Assembly: GCA_016934675.1 (NCBI GenBank)
Contig: JAFGSJ010000004.1
Location: 1 to 64,000, forward strand
Direction of reading: 5' to 3'
Length of the DNA: 64,000 nt
Origin: a bacterium
Lineage (GTDB): Bacteria; CSSED10-310; JAFGSJ01
This document shows, in pieces, positions 1 through 19,932 of the stretch. How positions within the stretch are numbered: the first letter of the stretch is position 1; each line of letters starts with the position of its first letter. The notes below the pieces were generated by a model. That model ran no database searches, was not told the origin of the DNA, and saw only the letters and a list, made by a program, of their open reading frames with translations. A program made the position numbers and the translations under genes.

Positions 1-603
1 CTCCTCTATGACCCGAGGAAGGACCCGAAAATGCTGAGTAGAGGCATTGATTACTCGGACCCTCTCGAAGGCAAGGTCCGTTGGAAACCGAAGATATTTC
101 ATAATTTTCATGGGGTGGATTTTGATGGTCTCTCACTCGCTCGTGATGTTGCCTTGTACACCTGTTCCGCTCCGACTTATTTCCCGTCAGCAGACGGGTT
201 TATTGATGGGGGCGTGTTCGCCAATAATCCGAGCAATGTGGCTATCGCCCAGGCTATTTCAAGTGCGAATGAACCGTCCGAGAGGGCCGATCTTGATGAG
301 CTGGTCCTGTTGTCGGTCGGCACCGGCATAAGTCTCAACTATATCAAGGGTGATACTCTCAACTGGGGCTATGCCCAATGGGTCAAACCACTCCTGAATG
401 TGCTCATGGACGGCGTGGAAACCATCGCCCATTATCAGGCGACCCAGCTTCTCTGTGAGCGATATCACCGGCTTCAGATTTACTTTGACAAGTACAAAAC
501 CATCAAACTCGATAATGTCAAAAAACTCGGTAGCATGGACCGGATCGCCCGAAACCATGATCTCGGACCAACTATCCAATGGCTCATGGAGAACTGGATA
601 TGA
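1..603 (+). CDS. Patatin-like phospholipase, C-terminal part (5' end outside window)
   Basis: Frame is open from base 1; TCSAPTYFP and the DGGVFANNP (patatin DGG/A) motif; stop at 601-603. Confidence 0.8.
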   Translation, partial: LLYDPRKDPKMLSRGIDYSDPLEGKVRWKPKIFHNFHGVDFDGLSLARDVALYTCSAPTYFPSADGFIDGGVFANNPSNVAIAQAISSANEPSERADLDELVLLSVGTGISLNYIKGDTLNWGYAQWVKPLLNVLMDGVETIAHYQATQLLCERYHRLQIYFDKYKTIKLDNVKKLGSMDRIARNHDLGPTIQWLMENWI

Positions 604-871
604 GTACACACATTTACTTGAAAAAGAGGAAATTTTTTGTTTTTTCCAAACGCTATACTGTAGCTGAAATTTCCATTGACAAGTCTCCTTTGACCCAGTA
701 CGATGGAATGGGAAAGGGGGTGAAACGTCCCGCAGATTTTCTGTAGTCAAAAAAACCAGGAGTTATAGGCTGATCCGCCTACCCCCCCCCGAATTTTTAG
801 GGAAACGGTCCGATATCGTTTAATTGCAAGGGATTCAGGTCATTTTCGAACAAGAATAGTAGGCGGCGATT

Positions 872-919
872 TCGCAACCTAAAGGATTTATAAGGAAACC
901 ATATAAACCCTAGTTGCGC
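872..919 (+). repeat. Candidate short attC-like recombination site (attC0)
   Basis: TCGCAAC (872-878) and GTTGCGC (913-919) as outer simple sites; inner arms AGGATTTAT / ATAAACCC pair imperfectly with one extra A; lies 17 nt before the ATG at 936. Confidence 0.5.
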
Positions 920-935
920 AATATAAGGTGGGTTT

Positions 936-1784
936 ATGGAAGATTTGCACAAAAATACGCAAGATGAGCTTATTGTTGAACACCTTCGTACTGAGCTTGC
1001 AAAGATAGAGCCGTCAAGACGTAAAAGAGTTATGGAAAAATTTGTTCTAGCTGCGTTAGGAAGTATTCCATGGGTAGGTGGATTTTTAAGCGCTGCAGCT
1101 AGTTACAAGGCGGATGAGGGGCCATTAAAACAAAATTCATTACAGACGCAATGGCTTGAGGAGCATCACCAGAAGATCATTGAACTTCAAGAAACATTAG
1201 CAGAAATACAAGAACGCTTTGAAGGTTTTGGAACAAATATTGATGATCGCATCCAGAGTGAGGAATATTTGATGTTAGTTCGGAAGGCTTTTCGTACATG
1301 GGATGAGGCTGATACAAATGAAAAGCGTCGTTTTTCAGCAAATACAATCACAAACGCTGCAGGCACTAGGGTCTGTTCAGATGATGTTGTTCATCTTTTT
1401 CTTGATTGGCTGGAGCTATATCATGAATCTCATTTCGCTGTTATTAGGGAAATATTCACAAACCCTGAATCATCTCGTTATGAAATATGGACTAATCTTT
1501 ATGGTGAAATACCACGTGAAGATTCTGCTGAAGCAGATTTGTTCAAATTACTGATACGTGATTTAAGCACTGGCGGAGTGATAAGGCAAGAGCGTGATGT
1601 AAATCATCTTGGACAATTTGTTAGAAAAACGCCGCAAAGGCGGCGTAGTACAAAACCATCGTCAACTCTGGAGTCTGCATTTGAAGATACCAAACCATAT
1701 GTTCTAACAGAACTTGGTAAGCAATTTGTTCATTACACCATGAATGAAGTCGTGGCTCGTATTGAAAGGTCTGGGAGTGAGTGA
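936..1784 (+). CDS. Hypothetical protein, 282 aa, with N-terminal hydrophobic segment FVLAALGSIPWVGGFLSAAASY; candidate cassette payload
   Basis: Complete ORF with AAGGTGGG upstream of the ATG; flanked by attC-like sites on both sides. Confidence 0.75.
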   Translation: MEDLHKNTQDELIVEHLRTELAKIEPSRRKRVMEKFVLAALGSIPWVGGFLSAAASYKADEGPLKQNSLQTQWLEEHHQKIIELQETLAEIQERFEGFGTNIDDRIQSEEYLMLVRKAFRTWDEADTNEKRRFSANTITNAAGTRVCSDDVVHLFLDWLELYHESHFAVIREIFTNPESSRYEIWTNLYGEIPREDSAEADLFKLLIRDLSTGGVIRQERDVNHLGQFVRKTPQRRRSTKPSSTLESAFEDTKPYVLTELGKQFVHYTMNEVVARIERSGSE

Positions 1785-1795
1785 AATGCTGTTAA

Positions 1796-1855
1796 GCCCA
1801 ACACCATTTTGCACAGGACGCCAAACAGCATGCGCCTGTGAAAATATAGTTCGGT
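1796..1855 (+). repeat. attC recombination site (60 bp)
   Basis: R''=GCCCAAC (matches RYYYAAC), arm CACAGGACGC pairs with GCGCCTGTG leaving an extra A, R'=GTTCGGT; starts 12 nt after the stop codon of the upstream ORF. Confidence 0.82.
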
Positions 1856-1873
1856 CCGACTGCAGGCGGTCGG

Positions 1874-1978
1874 ACCGAACGGGTCCGCGGCTGAATCGTT
1901 GTCTGGACCGCCTGCGACGGCCGAACACGCGGCTCGAACTGCCGAGCCGCACGCAGATCAGCCGCGGCCCCGTTATGC
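1874..1978 (+). repeat. attC recombination site (105 bp) of an ORF-less mini-cassette
   Basis: ACCGAAC...GTTATGC; arms AACGGGTCCGCGGCTGAATC / GATCAGCCGCGGCCCCGTT pair with one mismatch and one extra A; internal hairpin GCGGCTCG-AACTGC-CGAGCCGC. Confidence 0.75.
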
Positions 1979-2001
1979 AACAATCACATAGGTAATCAAA
2001 T

Positions 2002-4932
2002 ATGAGCGTACCTGATAGAGTTATTAAATTAATCGAAACTTTCGATAATAATTTGGAATCGTACAAAAAAGGTAACTACAATGAAACCCAGGTACGAAGG
2101 GAATATATAGACCCTTTTTTCAAGGAACTTGGTTGGGATGTTGCAAACAAACAGGGCTATGCCGAAGCATACAAGGACGTGATCCATGAAGACGCCATCA
2201 AGATTGGTGGCGTTACCAAAGCGCCGGACTACTGCTTCCGAATCGGTGGCGTCCGTAAGTTTTTTTTGGAAGCGAAAAAACCGTCCGTAAATATTCAAGA
2301 AGACATCCATCCGGCCTATCAGTTGCGTCGTTATGGGTGGAGCGCCAAACTGCCACTGAGCATTTTGACGGATTTCGAAGAACTTGCCGTTTACGACTGC
2401 CGGGTGAAGCCGTCGAAGAATGACAAGGTTTCCCACTCCCGCATCCTTTACTTCAAATACACGGATTACGAGAACCGGTGGGAAGAAATCGCTGGCATTT
2501 TTTCAAGGGATGCTATTCTAAAAGGCTCTTTTGACAAATATGTCGGATCCAATAAAGGCAAGAAAGGCACAACTGAAGTTGATGCCGCTTTCTTAAATGA
2601 GATTGAGAACTGGCGTGAGCTTTTGGCCCGCAACATCGCTCTACGCAATCCGAACCTTTCCCCGAGGGAATTGAACTTCGCCGTTCAGCAGACCATCGAC
2701 CGGATAGTGTTTCTCCGCATCTGTGAGGACCGGGGAATGGAGTCTTACGGCGGATTGATGGCGCTACGTAACGGGGAGAATGTTTACAAGCGGCTGTTTC
2801 ACCTTTTCAATAAAGCTGACGAGAAATACAACTCCGGGCTGTTTCATTTTAAAAAAGAAAAAGACCGCGAAAATTGTGACAACCTGACGCCTTTTCTACT
2901 AATCGACGATAAGCCTTTGAAGGAGATTTTCAAGAATCTATATTATCCAGAAAGCCCCTACGAATTTTCTGTTATATCGGCTGATATCCTCGGCCAAGTG
3001 TATGAACGCTTTTTAGGTAAAATCATCCGCCTCACCGCCGGTCACCACGCCAAAATCGAGGAAAAGCCCGAAGTTCGGAAGGCGGGCGGGGTTTATTATA
3101 CGCCCACCTATATCGTGGACTATATCGTCAAAAACACTGTAGGTAAACTGGTTGAAGGCAAAAGGCCCGGCCCCAAAGGCGGCGTTAGAAATTTAAAAAT
3201 ACTGGACCCGGCCTGCGGTTCGGGTTCGTTTTTGATCGGTGCATACCAGTTTTTGCTGGACTGGCATCGGGATGAATATATCAATGATGGCCCGGAGAAG
3301 TGGTCAAAAGGCAAAATTCCTCGCGTCTACCAATCCCAGAAAGGGGAATGGCGTTTGACTACCGACGAACGTAAGCGGATTCTTATAAACAACATATATG
3401 GCGTAGACATCGATCATCAGGCGGTGGAAGTGACAAAGCTGTCCCTATTGCTCAAGGTGCTGGAAGGGGAGGATGAACAGGGCATTGGCAAGCAGATGCT
3501 TTTGTTTCAGGAACGAGTTCTTCCGGACCTTTCGAACAACATCAAGTTCGGCAACTCCCTGATCGGTCCAGATTTCTATGACCACCAACAGATGAGTGTT
3601 TTTGACGAAGAAGAAATCTATCGTGTCAATGTCTTTGACTGGAACGCAGAATTTTCTGATATCATGCAAGATGGCGGTTTTCACGCGGTGATCGGAAATC
3701 CGCCATATGTCGACTTGAAGGGATTCCCCGAGCAAGAGCTCACATATATTTTCCGATCCTATGATTGCGCAAATAATCGAATCAATCTATTTGCAACATT
3801 CATGGAACGTTCGTTTTCTCTACTACAGAAAGCGGATGGTTATTTTTCCATGATCGTACCAACAGCTGTTTTGGCCCAAACATCGTACACTGCTTTAAGA
3901 AAGAAAATTCTCAATGAAGCCACACTTATCGATCTCGCCCGCCTCCCTAATGAATCATTTGGATCAGCCGCTGGTGAGGTCAAGGTTGATACGGTAATTG
4001 TGACATGGAGCACTCCACACAAAGTGAATTTTCAGACAAATCTCATTGCTTACCGTGGTTATGAACGAATTAACGCAATCACTCCAATTTCCGCGCATGT
4101 TCACGGAAAACTATCACTGAACAGTATCGTCAAAGATACTGATTATGTGTGGCCCGTAAACACAACAGACTCCCATAATGCAGTCCTTGAAAAAATTGAA
4201 GCAAACGGCGTTCCTTTGGTTTCACTTGTGGAATTCTGTCTAGGTCTGACACCCTATGACAAATACAAAGGACACACTGAAAAACAGATCACGGACAAGG
4301 TTTTTCACGCTGACCATCAAAAAGATCCAACATTCAAGAAACTACTCAAGGGCAATGATGTTCGTCGCTATTATGTCAACTGGAACGGCGAAGCATGGAT
4401 AAGTTACGGAGCCTGGCTGGGAGCTCCCCGCGAAGAACGGTTTTTCACGAAAAAACGGATTCTCGTTAAGCAAATCATAGACTGGAGCAGCTTGCGAATA
4501 TGGGCCGCTTTAACGACTGAAGCCTTATACAACACGCAAAATGCATTCAACTTGCTTCAAAATGATGAGACCTCACTTGAGTATATTTTGGGACTGCTGA
4601 ATTCGAAGCTGATCAACTTCTACCACCAGAAACGATTTCTTGATGAATTTAAGATGCGATTTCAAAAGATTTTGATTTGCGACTGTAAACGATTCCCCAT
4701 CCGCCCCATTGATTTCGATAATTCCGATGATGTTGCCATGCACGACAAAATGATCAATTTTGTCGATCAGATGCTGGAGTTGAACAAAAAGCTTGCCGAA
4801 TCCAAAATGCCGCAGACAACAGAGATGTTGAAACGGCAAATCGACGCCACAGACAGGCAAATTGATGAACTCACATATAAACTGTATAATTTAACAGATG
4901 AAGAAATAAAAATAGTGGAATCAGTAATTTGA
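2002..4932 (+). CDS. Type IIG-like restriction-modification enzyme (Eco57I-like class: nuclease, N6-adenine methyltransferase and specificity domain fusion)
   Basis: N-terminal APDYCFRIGGVRKFFLEAKKP (PD-(D/E)XK-like), DPACGSGSFL SAM motif, NPPY catalytic motif, long C-terminal TaqI-like specificity region. Confidence 0.88.
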   Translation: MSVPDRVIKLIETFDNNLESYKKGNYNETQVRREYIDPFFKELGWDVANKQGYAEAYKDVIHEDAIKIGGVTKAPDYCFRIGGVRKFFLEAKKPSVNIQEDIHPAYQLRRYGWSAKLPLSILTDFEELAVYDCRVKPSKNDKVSHSRILYFKYTDYENRWEEIAGIFSRDAILKGSFDKYVGSNKGKKGTTEVDAAFLNEIENWRELLARNIALRNPNLSPRELNFAVQQTIDRIVFLRICEDRGMESYGGLMALRNGENVYKRLFHLFNKADEKYNSGLFHFKKEKDRENCDNLTPFLLIDDKPLKEIFKNLYYPESPYEFSVISADILGQVYERFLGKIIRLTAGHHAKIEEKPEVRKAGGVYYTPTYIVDYIVKNTVGKLVEGKRPGPKGGVRNLKILDPACGSGSFLIGAYQFLLDWHRDEYINDGPEKWSKGKIPRVYQSQKGEWRLTTDERKRILINNIYGVDIDHQAVEVTKLSLLLKVLEGEDEQGIGKQMLLFQERVLPDLSNNIKFGNSLIGPDFYDHQQMSVFDEEEIYRVNVFDWNAEFSDIMQDGGFHAVIGNPPYVDLKGFPEQELTYIFRSYDCANNRINLFATFMERSFSLLQKADGYFSMIVPTAVLAQTSYTALRKKILNEATLIDLARLPNESFGSAAGEVKVDTVIVTWSTPHKVNFQTNLIAYRGYERINAITPISAHVHGKLSLNSIVKDTDYVWPVNTTDSHNAVLEKIEANGVPLVSLVEFCLGLTPYDKYKGHTEKQITDKVFHADHQKDPTFKKLLKGNDVRRYYVNWNGEAWISYGAWLGAPREERFFTKKRILVKQIIDWSSLRIWAALTTEALYNTQNAFNLLQNDETSLEYILGLLNSKLINFYHQKRFLDEFKMRFQKILICDCKRFPIRPIDFDNSDDVAMHDKMINFVDQMLELNKKLAESKMPQTTEMLKRQIDATDRQIDELTYKLYNLTDEEIKIVESVI

Positions 4933-4935
4933 GAT

Positions 4936-4994
4936 GCATAACAAAAAAATCCAGCGGACGCAAAAAGCCGCGCCGCTGATTTTCGTCGTTATCG
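4936..4994 (+). repeat. attC recombination site (59 bp)
   Basis: R''=GCATAAC, L''=ATCCAGCGG, L'=CCGCTGAT (one extra C in L''), R'=GTTATCG; starts 3 nt after the stop codon; same layout as the classical 59-base element. Confidence 0.88.
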
Positions 4995-5013: not shown

Positions 5014-5751
5014 ATGGAACTCAATTTCATGGACTTTGAAATCCCTCTGCTTCAAGCCCTTGTCAAACTTGGTGGAAAAGCAAAGCCGAAGGAAGTATAT
5101 CCAGTTGTGGAAAAAATAATGGGTTTGAATCCACAAGATTTTCCAAACGAATATGAGAAGTATAAGAGCAAAGTCATCAAATGGCAAAATAAAACAGCAT
5201 GGGCACGTGAATACCTGAAGCGGAAATATCAATTAGATGGTTCAGAACGTGGCATTTGGAAACTAACCGAAATTGGAGAAGAAAGGCTCAATCACTTCAA
5301 CCGAACACAAAAAGACCCGGATGAAGGTTTGGCGCCATTATTGGGAGTTGATTCCTCTCTATCAGAAGAGAACATCACACCAAGAGAAGGCTTCAACAGA
5401 ATAGCGAATATTCAAATACATGAGACAGGCGACATACTCGGTGTTCGAGGAATTGTCTACGAACCTATCAATGAACAAGGTGTAATTCTATTATTTGCAG
5501 CTTTATGTCATGACTTGGGATTTATGATCGAAGCCATTCGGAATGCTTTTCCTGATGCGTTATTAAGGAGAAGAAATGCAAAAGGAACGTGGAATAGTTG
5601 CAAAGCCGAATTCGAGTATAAATCATCTAATTTCAAATCTCATAAACACGATCCGAACCAATGTGACCTAATCATTTGTTGGGAACATGATTGGCAGGAT
5701 TGCCAGAAAGAAGTTCTTTGTCTTAAGGAACTGGCCAATGAATTTAAATGA
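5014..5751 (+). CDS. Mrr N-terminal-like winged-helix protein with putative C-terminal nuclease-like domain
   Basis: N-terminus resembles Mrr_N (LVKLGGKAKPKEVYPVVEKIMG...); C-terminal FPDALLRRRN...KAEFEYKSSNF..H.HDPNQCDLIICWEHDW resembles a PD-(D/E)XK-like core; GAGGGT upstream of start. Confidence 0.7.
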   Translation: MELNFMDFEIPLLQALVKLGGKAKPKEVYPVVEKIMGLNPQDFPNEYEKYKSKVIKWQNKTAWAREYLKRKYQLDGSERGIWKLTEIGEERLNHFNRTQKDPDEGLAPLLGVDSSLSEENITPREGFNRIANIQIHETGDILGVRGIVYEPINEQGVILLFAALCHDLGFMIEAIRNAFPDALLRRRNAKGTWNSCKAEFEYKSSNFKSHKHDPNQCDLIICWEHDWQDCQKEVLCLKELANEFK

Positions 5752-6498: not shown

Positions 6499-7563
6499 AT
6501 GGATTTTTTAGATCAGCTTCTGGAGTTATCCGCTAAAGTAGCCAAGCAACGTGAGAACATCCAAACCGAGGAAGCAACGAAAACGGCCTTCGTGATGCCA
6601 TTTATCAACGCACTGGGCTATAATGTGTTCGATCCGACTGAGGTTGTGCCTGAATTTACAGCGGATGTCGGTACGAAAAAAGGTGAAAAAGTCGACTATG
6701 CCCTGATGAAAGACGGCAGTCCGATCATTCTTTTTGAGTGCAAATGGTGTTGCAGTAATCTTGATACAGCCGATATTTCACAGTTATATCGCTATTTCTC
6801 TGTTGTTGACGCTCGGATTGCGATCTTGACGAATGGCATCATCTACCGGTTTTATACCGATCTTGAAGAAACAAACAAGATGGATAAGAAGCCATTTTTA
6901 GAGTTTGATTTACTCAATATTGATGAGGAGCTAGTCAAGGAAGTCAAAAAAATCTCGAAACCGGCCTTTGATCTTGAGAAATTAATGGCAACTGCCAGCG
7001 ATCTGAAATACACCAAGGAAATTAAGAATATTCTGAGTGAGCAAATTAATTCGCCCTCGGAAGAGTTTGTGCGTTTTTTTGCATCACAAGTCTATGCTGG
7101 GCGATTGATGCCCGATGTACGTGCCCAGTTTACAGATATCACCAAACGCGCTTTCCGCGATTTCATCAACGATCAGATCAACTCCAGACTCAAATCGGCT
7201 ATGACCGCATCGACAATACAGACAGATGAATCGGTGGATGAAGAGGAACAAATACCTGAGTCGGATAAATCCAAAATAGTGACCACTGAGGAGGAAATCG
7301 AAGGTTATCACATCGTTAAATCGATTTTGCGTGAAGTAATTGATCCCAAACGAGTGGTCATGCGTGATACAATCAATTATCTGGGCATTTTACTTGATGA
7401 TAATAACCGCAAACCGATCTGCCGCCTCTATCTGAATACAGCCAATAAATACTTGGCCCTCATGGACGTGCAGAAAAAAGAGGAAAGATTTCTTTTGGAA
7501 AGCCTTAACGACATATACAAATACGCGGAACAACTCAAGAACACACTGACATTCTATAGATAA
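6499..7563 (+). CDS. Orphan HsdR N-terminal-domain-like (Type I restriction R-subunit-like) protein, 354 aa
   Basis: FINALGYNVFDPTEVVPEF..DVGTKKGEKVDYALMKDGSPIILFECKW nuclease motif; RBS AGGAGGG before ATG 6499; no helicase domain and no adjacent hsdM/hsdS. Confidence 0.8.
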   Translation: MDFLDQLLELSAKVAKQRENIQTEEATKTAFVMPFINALGYNVFDPTEVVPEFTADVGTKKGEKVDYALMKDGSPIILFECKWCCSNLDTADISQLYRYFSVVDARIAILTNGIIYRFYTDLEETNKMDKKPFLEFDLLNIDEELVKEVKKISKPAFDLEKLMATASDLKYTKEIKNILSEQINSPSEEFVRFFASQVYAGRLMPDVRAQFTDITKRAFRDFINDQINSRLKSAMTASTIQTDESVDEEEQIPESDKSKIVTTEEEIEGYHIVKSILREVIDPKRVVMRDTINYLGILLDDNNRKPICRLYLNTANKYLALMDVQKKEERFLLESLNDIYKYAEQLKNTLTFYR

Positions 7564-18867: not shown

Positions 18868-19932
18868 TCATTCAGATGAGCTACCCCGTGAACTCAAATA
18901 GTCAAAAAAAATCGAGGCCAGATATTCATAACCGAGTTCATTGGGATGGAGTCCGTCAGGCAGAAACAGGTCGGCCAGATTACCGTTATAGTCGCTGATG
19001 GCTTCATGGAGATCGACCAGGTCCAGACCGTTGTTCAGGCAATAGCTTCTGATTTGATCGTTCAATTCTTGTGTGGGTTCGAAGCATTCCTCATAATAGA
19101 GGCAGGGGGTCAGGGTGCACAGGATCGGGATGGTTTGATTGGCTTGACAGGCTTCGGCCGTTCTGGCGAGATATTCGAGGGTTTGGCAGTTATAGGGTTC
19201 GTAACAGGCACCGGGAAACATGAGGTCGTTGATGCCGATCAGGAGAATGAGATAGGCTGGTCGGTAATACCACAGATACGTATCAAGGTAATAATGAAAC
19301 AGGTTACCGGAGGTCATGCCTCCGATACCTTCGTTGAACGCTTCTGCTTCGTCACCGAAGTATTCCTGGAGTTTCGGAGTCAATTTAGCCGGATACTCGA
19401 TACCGTAGCCACCCTCGGTGATACTGTCGCCGGTACAGACGAACAGGTTGGGGGTATTGGAGCCGATGAATTCGATCACGATGCTCGAAATCGGGGTCAA
19501 ACCGGGAGCATAACCGAGTGCATCAGCCTGACAGCGATAAAAATATCTGTTGCTCGGCACAAGTGCGTATCCGAACCGGAAGTGCATGAGACCATCTTGC
19601 GGAGGCGGACAAGCTTCCACGGCCAGGATGTTCGAGAGGTCGGCCTGATCGGAAAGTTGGATGACATAGCTGGTCCCGGAGACGGTGCTGTTCGTATCTT
19701 CGATCACAACCAGGGGATGCGGGGAGGAAAGCATGATTCCGTCCACCGGGCTGACAATGATCGGGTTGTTGAGAGGCGGAACAGTCGGGGTGCTGGTCGG
19801 GGTCATGGTCGGGGTCGGGGTCGGGGTATCCTCCGGGTCTGAATCGTCATCGTCCGTACAAGCCAGAAACAACAATCCTGAACCGTAGAGAATAATGAAC
19901 AGCATTCCTATACAAGAAATGAATCGTCTCAT
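18868..19932 (-). CDS. SGNH/GDSL-family hydrolase lipoprotein
   Basis: Lipobox-like LLFLACTDDDD, FVCTGDSITEGGYG block I, GINDL block, DGLHPNELGYEYLA block V. Confidence 0.85.
   Translation of the reverse strand: MRRFISCIGMLFIILYGSGLLFLACTDDDDSDPEDTPTPTPTMTPTSTPTVPPLNNPIIVSPVDGIMLSSPHPLVVIEDTNSTVSGTSYVIQLSDQADLSNILAVEACPPPQDGLMHFRFGYALVPSNRYFYRCQADALGYAPGLTPISSIVIEFIGSNTPNLFVCTGDSITEGGYGIEYPAKLTPKLQEYFGDEAEAFNEGIGGMTSGNLFHYYLDTYLWYYRPAYLILLIGINDLMFPGACYEPYNCQTLEYLARTAEACQANQTIPILCTLTPCLYYEECFEPTQELNDQIRSYCLNNGLDLVDLHEAISDYNGNLADLFLPDGLHPNELGYEYLASIFFDYLSSRGSSSE
19785..19827. repeat. Short GGTCGG-type tandem repeat encoding a Thr-Pro linker
   Basis: gtcggggtgctggtcggggtcatggtcggggtcggggtcgggg encodes TPTPTPTMTPTSTPT on the minus strand. 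Confidence 0.8.

Follow-up and report, generated by a model that had tools for sequence, protein, structure and literature searches.

Clusters of attC sites lacking an integron-integrase (CALINs) are a category defined by IntegronFinder (PMC9024848), and the sedentary chromosomal integrons of Vibrio have been reviewed as stores of anti-phage systems (PMC12409362); integron cassettes that carry defence genes are a kind of element already known. Gene-less promoter cassettes of Vibrionaceae superintegrons are treated in PMC11014356, according to one section heading of which in silico analysis cannot identify such promoters. Here we report on a cassette array at positions 872–4994 of a 64,000-nucleotide stretch of bacterial DNA, called the window throughout, which comprises bases 1–64000 of contig C157 (131,954 bp). 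The contig belongs to a genome of 5.45 Mb in 169 contigs that is estimated to be 96% complete and whose phylum is represented by eight genomes in the collection. The initial annotation had described this segment as an integron cassette array without a visible integrase, and our analysis supports that interpretation: the array is confirmed to be real, as are, on re-reading, all the positions given for its open reading frames (ORFs) and boxes. We assign a probability of roughly 0.9 to the reading that this is a chromosomal array of integron cassettes with no integrase gene (intI) in the assembly, be it a CALIN or the array portion of a split integron.

We would order the array as follows: a promoter-bearing leader (565–915), its terminal G↓TT, a cassette with an ORF that we call ORF1 and the site attC1, a 123-bp ORF-less cassette with attC2, a restriction-modification cassette with attC3, and finally either a truncated cassette or the chromosome; all of these lie on the plus strand.

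The movement of a cassette as a unit between lineages is recorded in the 3016-bp cassette at 1973–4988, whose gene (2002–4932) encodes a type IIG restriction enzyme-methyltransferase of 976 amino acids. The protein matches the PADLOC family REase_MTase_IIG with E=1e-199 and combines the domains HSDR_N, Eco57I and TaqI_C, that is nuclease, N6-adenine methyltransferase and specificity domains in a single chain, with the motifs PD..EAK, DPACGSG and NPPY intact. It was searched against 84,980 species genomes. On a contig of a metagenome-assembled genome (MAG) of a sulfate reducer of the Desulfobacterales (locus L094) the search found an enzyme with 93% protein and 91% nucleotide identity to that of the window. 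The block common to the two loci opens at G↓TTATGC and closes at the G↓TT of attC3, a site that is shared and model-supported there as well. The 100 bp on either side of this block are unrelated, with identities of 48% and 45% where the median of random pairs is 48%. Because its ends are identical and its neighbours different, the gene has moved as a cassette. In another Desulfobacterales MAG (locus L099) the same TTATGCA start is found at the R' box of a different model-supported attC, which follows two more attC sites. With more than 390 genomes in the collection for the order around L099 and eight for the phylum of the window, the window genome and these MAGs fall into separate phyla, provided that both bins are correct. 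Gain and loss fall exactly at cassette boundaries in homologous loci, and a covariance model accepts two of the sites (see below), so that neither of the two outcomes named in the initial annotation as refuting the array was obtained. Upstream of the cassette in L094, in the opposite orientation (269–574, minus strand), are group II intron domains (Rfam RF02001 and RF01998).

The recombination sites themselves were assessed by covariance models and by folding. A search of the window against Rfam gave zero matches, and attC models were therefore built in this analysis. The first, R1, combined 18 attC sites from class 1 integrons on plasmids with a single site of a genome in this phylum that bears IntI, and was scored at every window position; for the second, R2, further attC sites of the window genome were added to the training set; the window itself was left out of both. 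The two models agree in their ranking, with attC3 (4936–4994) in first place (R1 37.5 bits, E=1.6e-7; R2 38.2 bits, E=8.9e-9) and attC1 (1796–1855) in second (R1 17.3 bits, E=0.042; R2 20.5 bits, E=0.0022), while with R1 no remaining position exceeds 12.1 bits. Both sites have recognisable R''/R' and L''/L' boxes, and their spacing and extrahelical bases, as read from the sequence, are those of class 1 sites according to the definition used for comparison (PMC2727003). In attC1 the boxes are R'' GCCCAAC (1796–1802) and R' GTTCGGT (1849–1855), in attC2 (1874–1978) R'' ACCGAAC (1874–1880) and R' GTTATGC (1972–1978), and in attC3 R'' GCATAAC (4936–4942) and R' GTTATCG (4988–4994). The combination of boxes and model acceptance is lacking at 1874–1978 and at 866–921. 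The bottom strands of all four sites fold better than each of their 200 shuffles (z from -3.5, the value of attC1, to -5.4). The initial annotation had counted three well-formed attC-like structures and a weaker one; attC3 and attC1 stand as such by model, 1874–1978 is supported instead as a lineage-specific repeat, and 872–914 was rejected as an attC. The latter is the 3' end of the leader, and since its R'' AAC varies among the leader copies it is no recombination site of this type, although the G↓TT breakpoint is itself conserved and real.

A further claim, that the first bases of each cassette pair with the R'' of its own attC beyond chance expectation, was upheld in its counts, which are 6/7 for 914–1849, 7/7 for 1850–1972 and 7/7 for 1973–4988, in comparison with random pairs with fixed AAC/GTT cores that give 7/7 in 0.55% and 6/7 in 5.3% of cases. 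The match of unit 1850–1972 must nevertheless be discounted as independent evidence because 1849–1880 is one single perfect inverted repeat of 12 bp.

Several observations weigh against an integron array. The model match of attC1 is moderate at its E-values of 0.042 and 0.0022, attC2 has none, and the assembly lacks IntI. The many further attC loci of this genome speak in favour of the array, as does the presence of IntI above the family cut-off in 5/6 of the genomes with homologs of the IIG enzyme, yet the exception is the L094 genome itself, and as the L094 contig measures only 7.3 kb its binning could be wrong. Moreover, several IIG homologs (for example L095, L098, L109 and L111) have no convincing attC nearby, and the gene is therefore not confined to cassettes.

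The absence of the integrase is compatible with two explanations. IntI was called by the TIGR02249 cut-off, and no protein anywhere in the assembly passes it; the tyrosine recombinases encoded on C93, C96 and C162 lie far under that cut-off and were not accepted as candidates. The observation that no IntI is visible in the window thus extends to the whole assembly, but the contig starts at window base 1 and an assembly break is possible. Indeed, the contig opens inside an ORF for a patatin-like phospholipase (1–603, plus strand), 872 bp ahead of the first attC-like site, and so there is no assembled sequence upstream of the array. We recognised attC sites at about 20 loci of this genome, some of them through repeat-family similarity rather than by the attC models, and some located beside toxin-antitoxin and GNAT genes. 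The loci lie mostly at contig ends (17/20 within 5 kb, P=9e-7), for which reason a complete integron with its own intI may have been split by the assembly, the gene residing on an unassembled stretch or on another contig. The presence of IntI in two of the eight genomes of the phylum speaks for such a split, whereas the estimated completeness of the assembly and the nature of the ORF preceding the leader, a patatin and no integrase, speak against it. Alternatively, the locus would be a true CALIN: the cassettes would have entered secondary or leader sites through an integrase acting in trans, and the array would neither have nor ever have had an integrase gene next to it. Two model-supported sites lie 3.1 kb apart in an assembly devoid of IntI and may form such a cluster, although the contig ends 872 bp upstream; the attC loci are scattered over the genome and none of the dispersed leader copies is beside intI. 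A true CALIN faces the same problem of missing sequence as the split integron, however, with most of the copies at contig ends. The two explanations are about equally possible, each standing close to even odds.

The 123-bp unit at 1850–1972 is best read as an ORF-less cassette that ends in a lineage-specific type of attC (attC2; fold z -5.4). Neither R1 nor R2 detects this site, whose stem has almost no unpaired central spacer. The segment 1846–1980 belongs to a repeat family that is nearly complete on C135 (88%) and C152 (83%) and represented by partial copies on C25, C59, C61 and C45. Most members of the family diverge past CCCG↓TT; the GTT is altered in C152 and in one of the C25 copies. 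We consider it unlikely that the unit is instead a palindromic mobile repeat that came to rest beside attC sites by chance and is no cassette. Such a repeat would account for the first 32 bp, a perfect hairpin of which the start of the unit forms one half, for the truncated copies on C59, C61 and C45 and for an end that the attC models do not recognise. It would not account for the coincidence of both ends with G↓TT, as its left end falls on the G↓TT of a model-supported attC both in the window and on C135 and comes after an attC-like sequence (judged by eye) on C152, nor for the start of the IIG cassette at the right-hand G↓TT of the unit, just as that cassette follows other sites in L094 and L099. 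The remaining alternative, in which the array would consist of fixed chromosomal genes with hairpins that resemble attC by chance or act as terminators, could appeal to the moderate score of attC1 and to a terminator-like pattern at 1849–1880 on the minus strand but is scarcely credible in view of the attC model scores, and for the IIG cassette it is refuted by boundary-precise sharing with different flanks.

Ahead of the cassette array lies a dispersed leader of approximately 350 bp (565–915) that ends at G↓TT and is among the less ordinary parts of this locus. It has about 10 genomic copies, those other than the one in the window being on C61, C60, C15, C68, C146, C63, C70 and C39, with a mean identity of 76% over the last 50 nt to GTT and of 50% beyond. 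A consensus scan detected a promoter-like element, TTGACA-17-TACGAT, at 676–704 (plus strand), pointing into the array; its hexamers and spacing are identical in 6/6 full-length copies. On C146, C68 and C63, as in the window, model-supported attC sites come after the leader. It resembles an array head in its conservation up to G↓TT, the cassettes that follow and the promoter directed towards them, but lacks an adjacent intI, and the copy on C70 sits inside an array downstream of an attC. The leader was not found in plasmids or, with one exact pattern searched, in viral contigs. It may be the head of an array, similar to attI/Pc, or a gene-less cassette with a promoter, or else an unusual recombination site of great length. 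The genes that come after it on other contigs, all named by eye, comprise a TPR-like ORF, toxin-antitoxin-like pairs, an ORF for a REP-type transposase and a TrkH-like transporter; on C61 the sequence directly 5' of the leader resembles the end of the patatin ORF at 1–603.

A second promoter-like block occurs in a 133-bp attC family, represented by L065 9617–9749 on C135 (contig positions 19616–19748) with copies on C152, C52, C51, C55, C8, C13, C165 and C63. A conserved inner block in the loop region, likewise among the unusual parts of the system, contains TTGAC(A/T)-17-T(A/G)(A/G)ACT directed towards the next cassette, exact in 7/9 copies. It is tempting, though doubtful, to see in these features a dispersed integron system, in which some ten promoter-bearing attI-like leaders without adjacent integrase would each head an array of their own and depend on an unseen integrase that acts in trans; together with the one attC family that has a promoter-like loop block, recombination sites and promoters would thus be copied together around the genome. 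As regards the window array, cassettes would have been excised and inserted by an IntI that acts in trans or was once present and that cleaves attC at G↓TT on its folded bottom strand, the leader promoter would transcribe the array, and the IIG protein would methylate host DNA and cut unmodified phage DNA.

The initial annotation had spoken of defence genes in the plural. Homology and intact motifs support a predicted defence function for the IIG gene, the only gene of the array for which this holds. In some IIG homologs (L096, L097, L098 and L102) the region corresponding to window positions 3711 to about 4730, the specificity part, cannot be aligned even though both sides of it can, which suggests that the target-recognition part of the gene may have been exchanged among homologs.

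Cassette 1 (914–1849, plus strand) extends from the leader breakpoint on its left to the cut within attC1 on its right and comprises ORF1 and most of that site. ORF1 (936–1784, plus strand) encodes 282 amino acids of no recognised family, with zero matches in Pfam, PADLOC, NCBIfam, PHROGs and plasmids, and AlphaFold models it poorly (mean pLDDT 49). The seven remaining genomes of the phylum have no homolog, nor were any found in 390 genomes of the order around genome G009, where the empty result of such a search proves little. Homologs that are 51–62% identical do exist in viral contigs. Two of them adjoin a P4-type primase, and the context hints that they may be accessory or defence cargo. 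In L122 (2992–5779) the homolog stands beside the P4-type primase and an ORF for a KAP-like NTPase, and in L125 a similar NTPase ORF is downstream of it (the NTPases identified by eye). No attC is present near the viral homologs, and the boundary-precise evidence for mobility is accordingly that of the IIG cassette and not of ORF1. At the other end of the array, an ORF with an Mrr_N domain (5014–5751, plus strand; E=3.7e-13) is either a truncated last cassette or the right flank, no attC match being obtained downstream of it by R1 or R2 across the window. Further downstream, after an RHS-repeat ORF, is an ORF with an HSDR_N nuclease-type domain (6499–7563). The upstream neighbour, the 3' part of the patatin ORF, resembles the phospholipase effectors of CBASS (PADLOC PDLC00758, E=2.5e-25; NCBIfam CBASS_lipase, E=3.4e-19, under the cut-off of that family).

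The IIG cassette provides a cassette-precise record of a complete single-gene restriction-modification system moving between bacteria placed in different phyla. It also places such cassettes in a phylum of which the collection has just eight genomes, and it extends to little-known environmental bacteria the notion that integrons store anti-phage genes, which is familiar chiefly from Vibrio and from mobile integrons. If it is true that the leader copies act as array heads, the capture and expression of cassettes far from an integrase become testable.

With the Vibrionaceae promoter cassettes (PMC11014356) the array shares non-coding units that may be able to transcribe downstream cassettes, the promoter-like blocks being found in the leader and in the 133-bp attC family. 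It differs in that these blocks occupy a dispersed leader and the loop region of an attC, whereas the 123-bp unit has no clear promoter. Like a CALIN, it has two or more attC sites that point the same way, cassettes between them and no integrase gene found; in contrast to one, its contig end allows for a split integron, one of its sites is lineage-specific and missed by class 1 models, and a repeated promoter-bearing leader stands ahead of it. The IIG protein unites nuclease, methyltransferase and specificity parts as do other type IIG enzymes (PADLOC REase_MTase_IIG) but, known here from its sequence, is encoded by a gene carried as an integron cassette. The parallel with the sedentary integrons of Vibrio lies in a defence-gene cassette among toxin-antitoxin and unknown genes; the present system is set apart by its occurrence in another phylum, by short and dispersed arrays in an assembly without integrase, and by a 3-kb IIG cassette with a predicted function.

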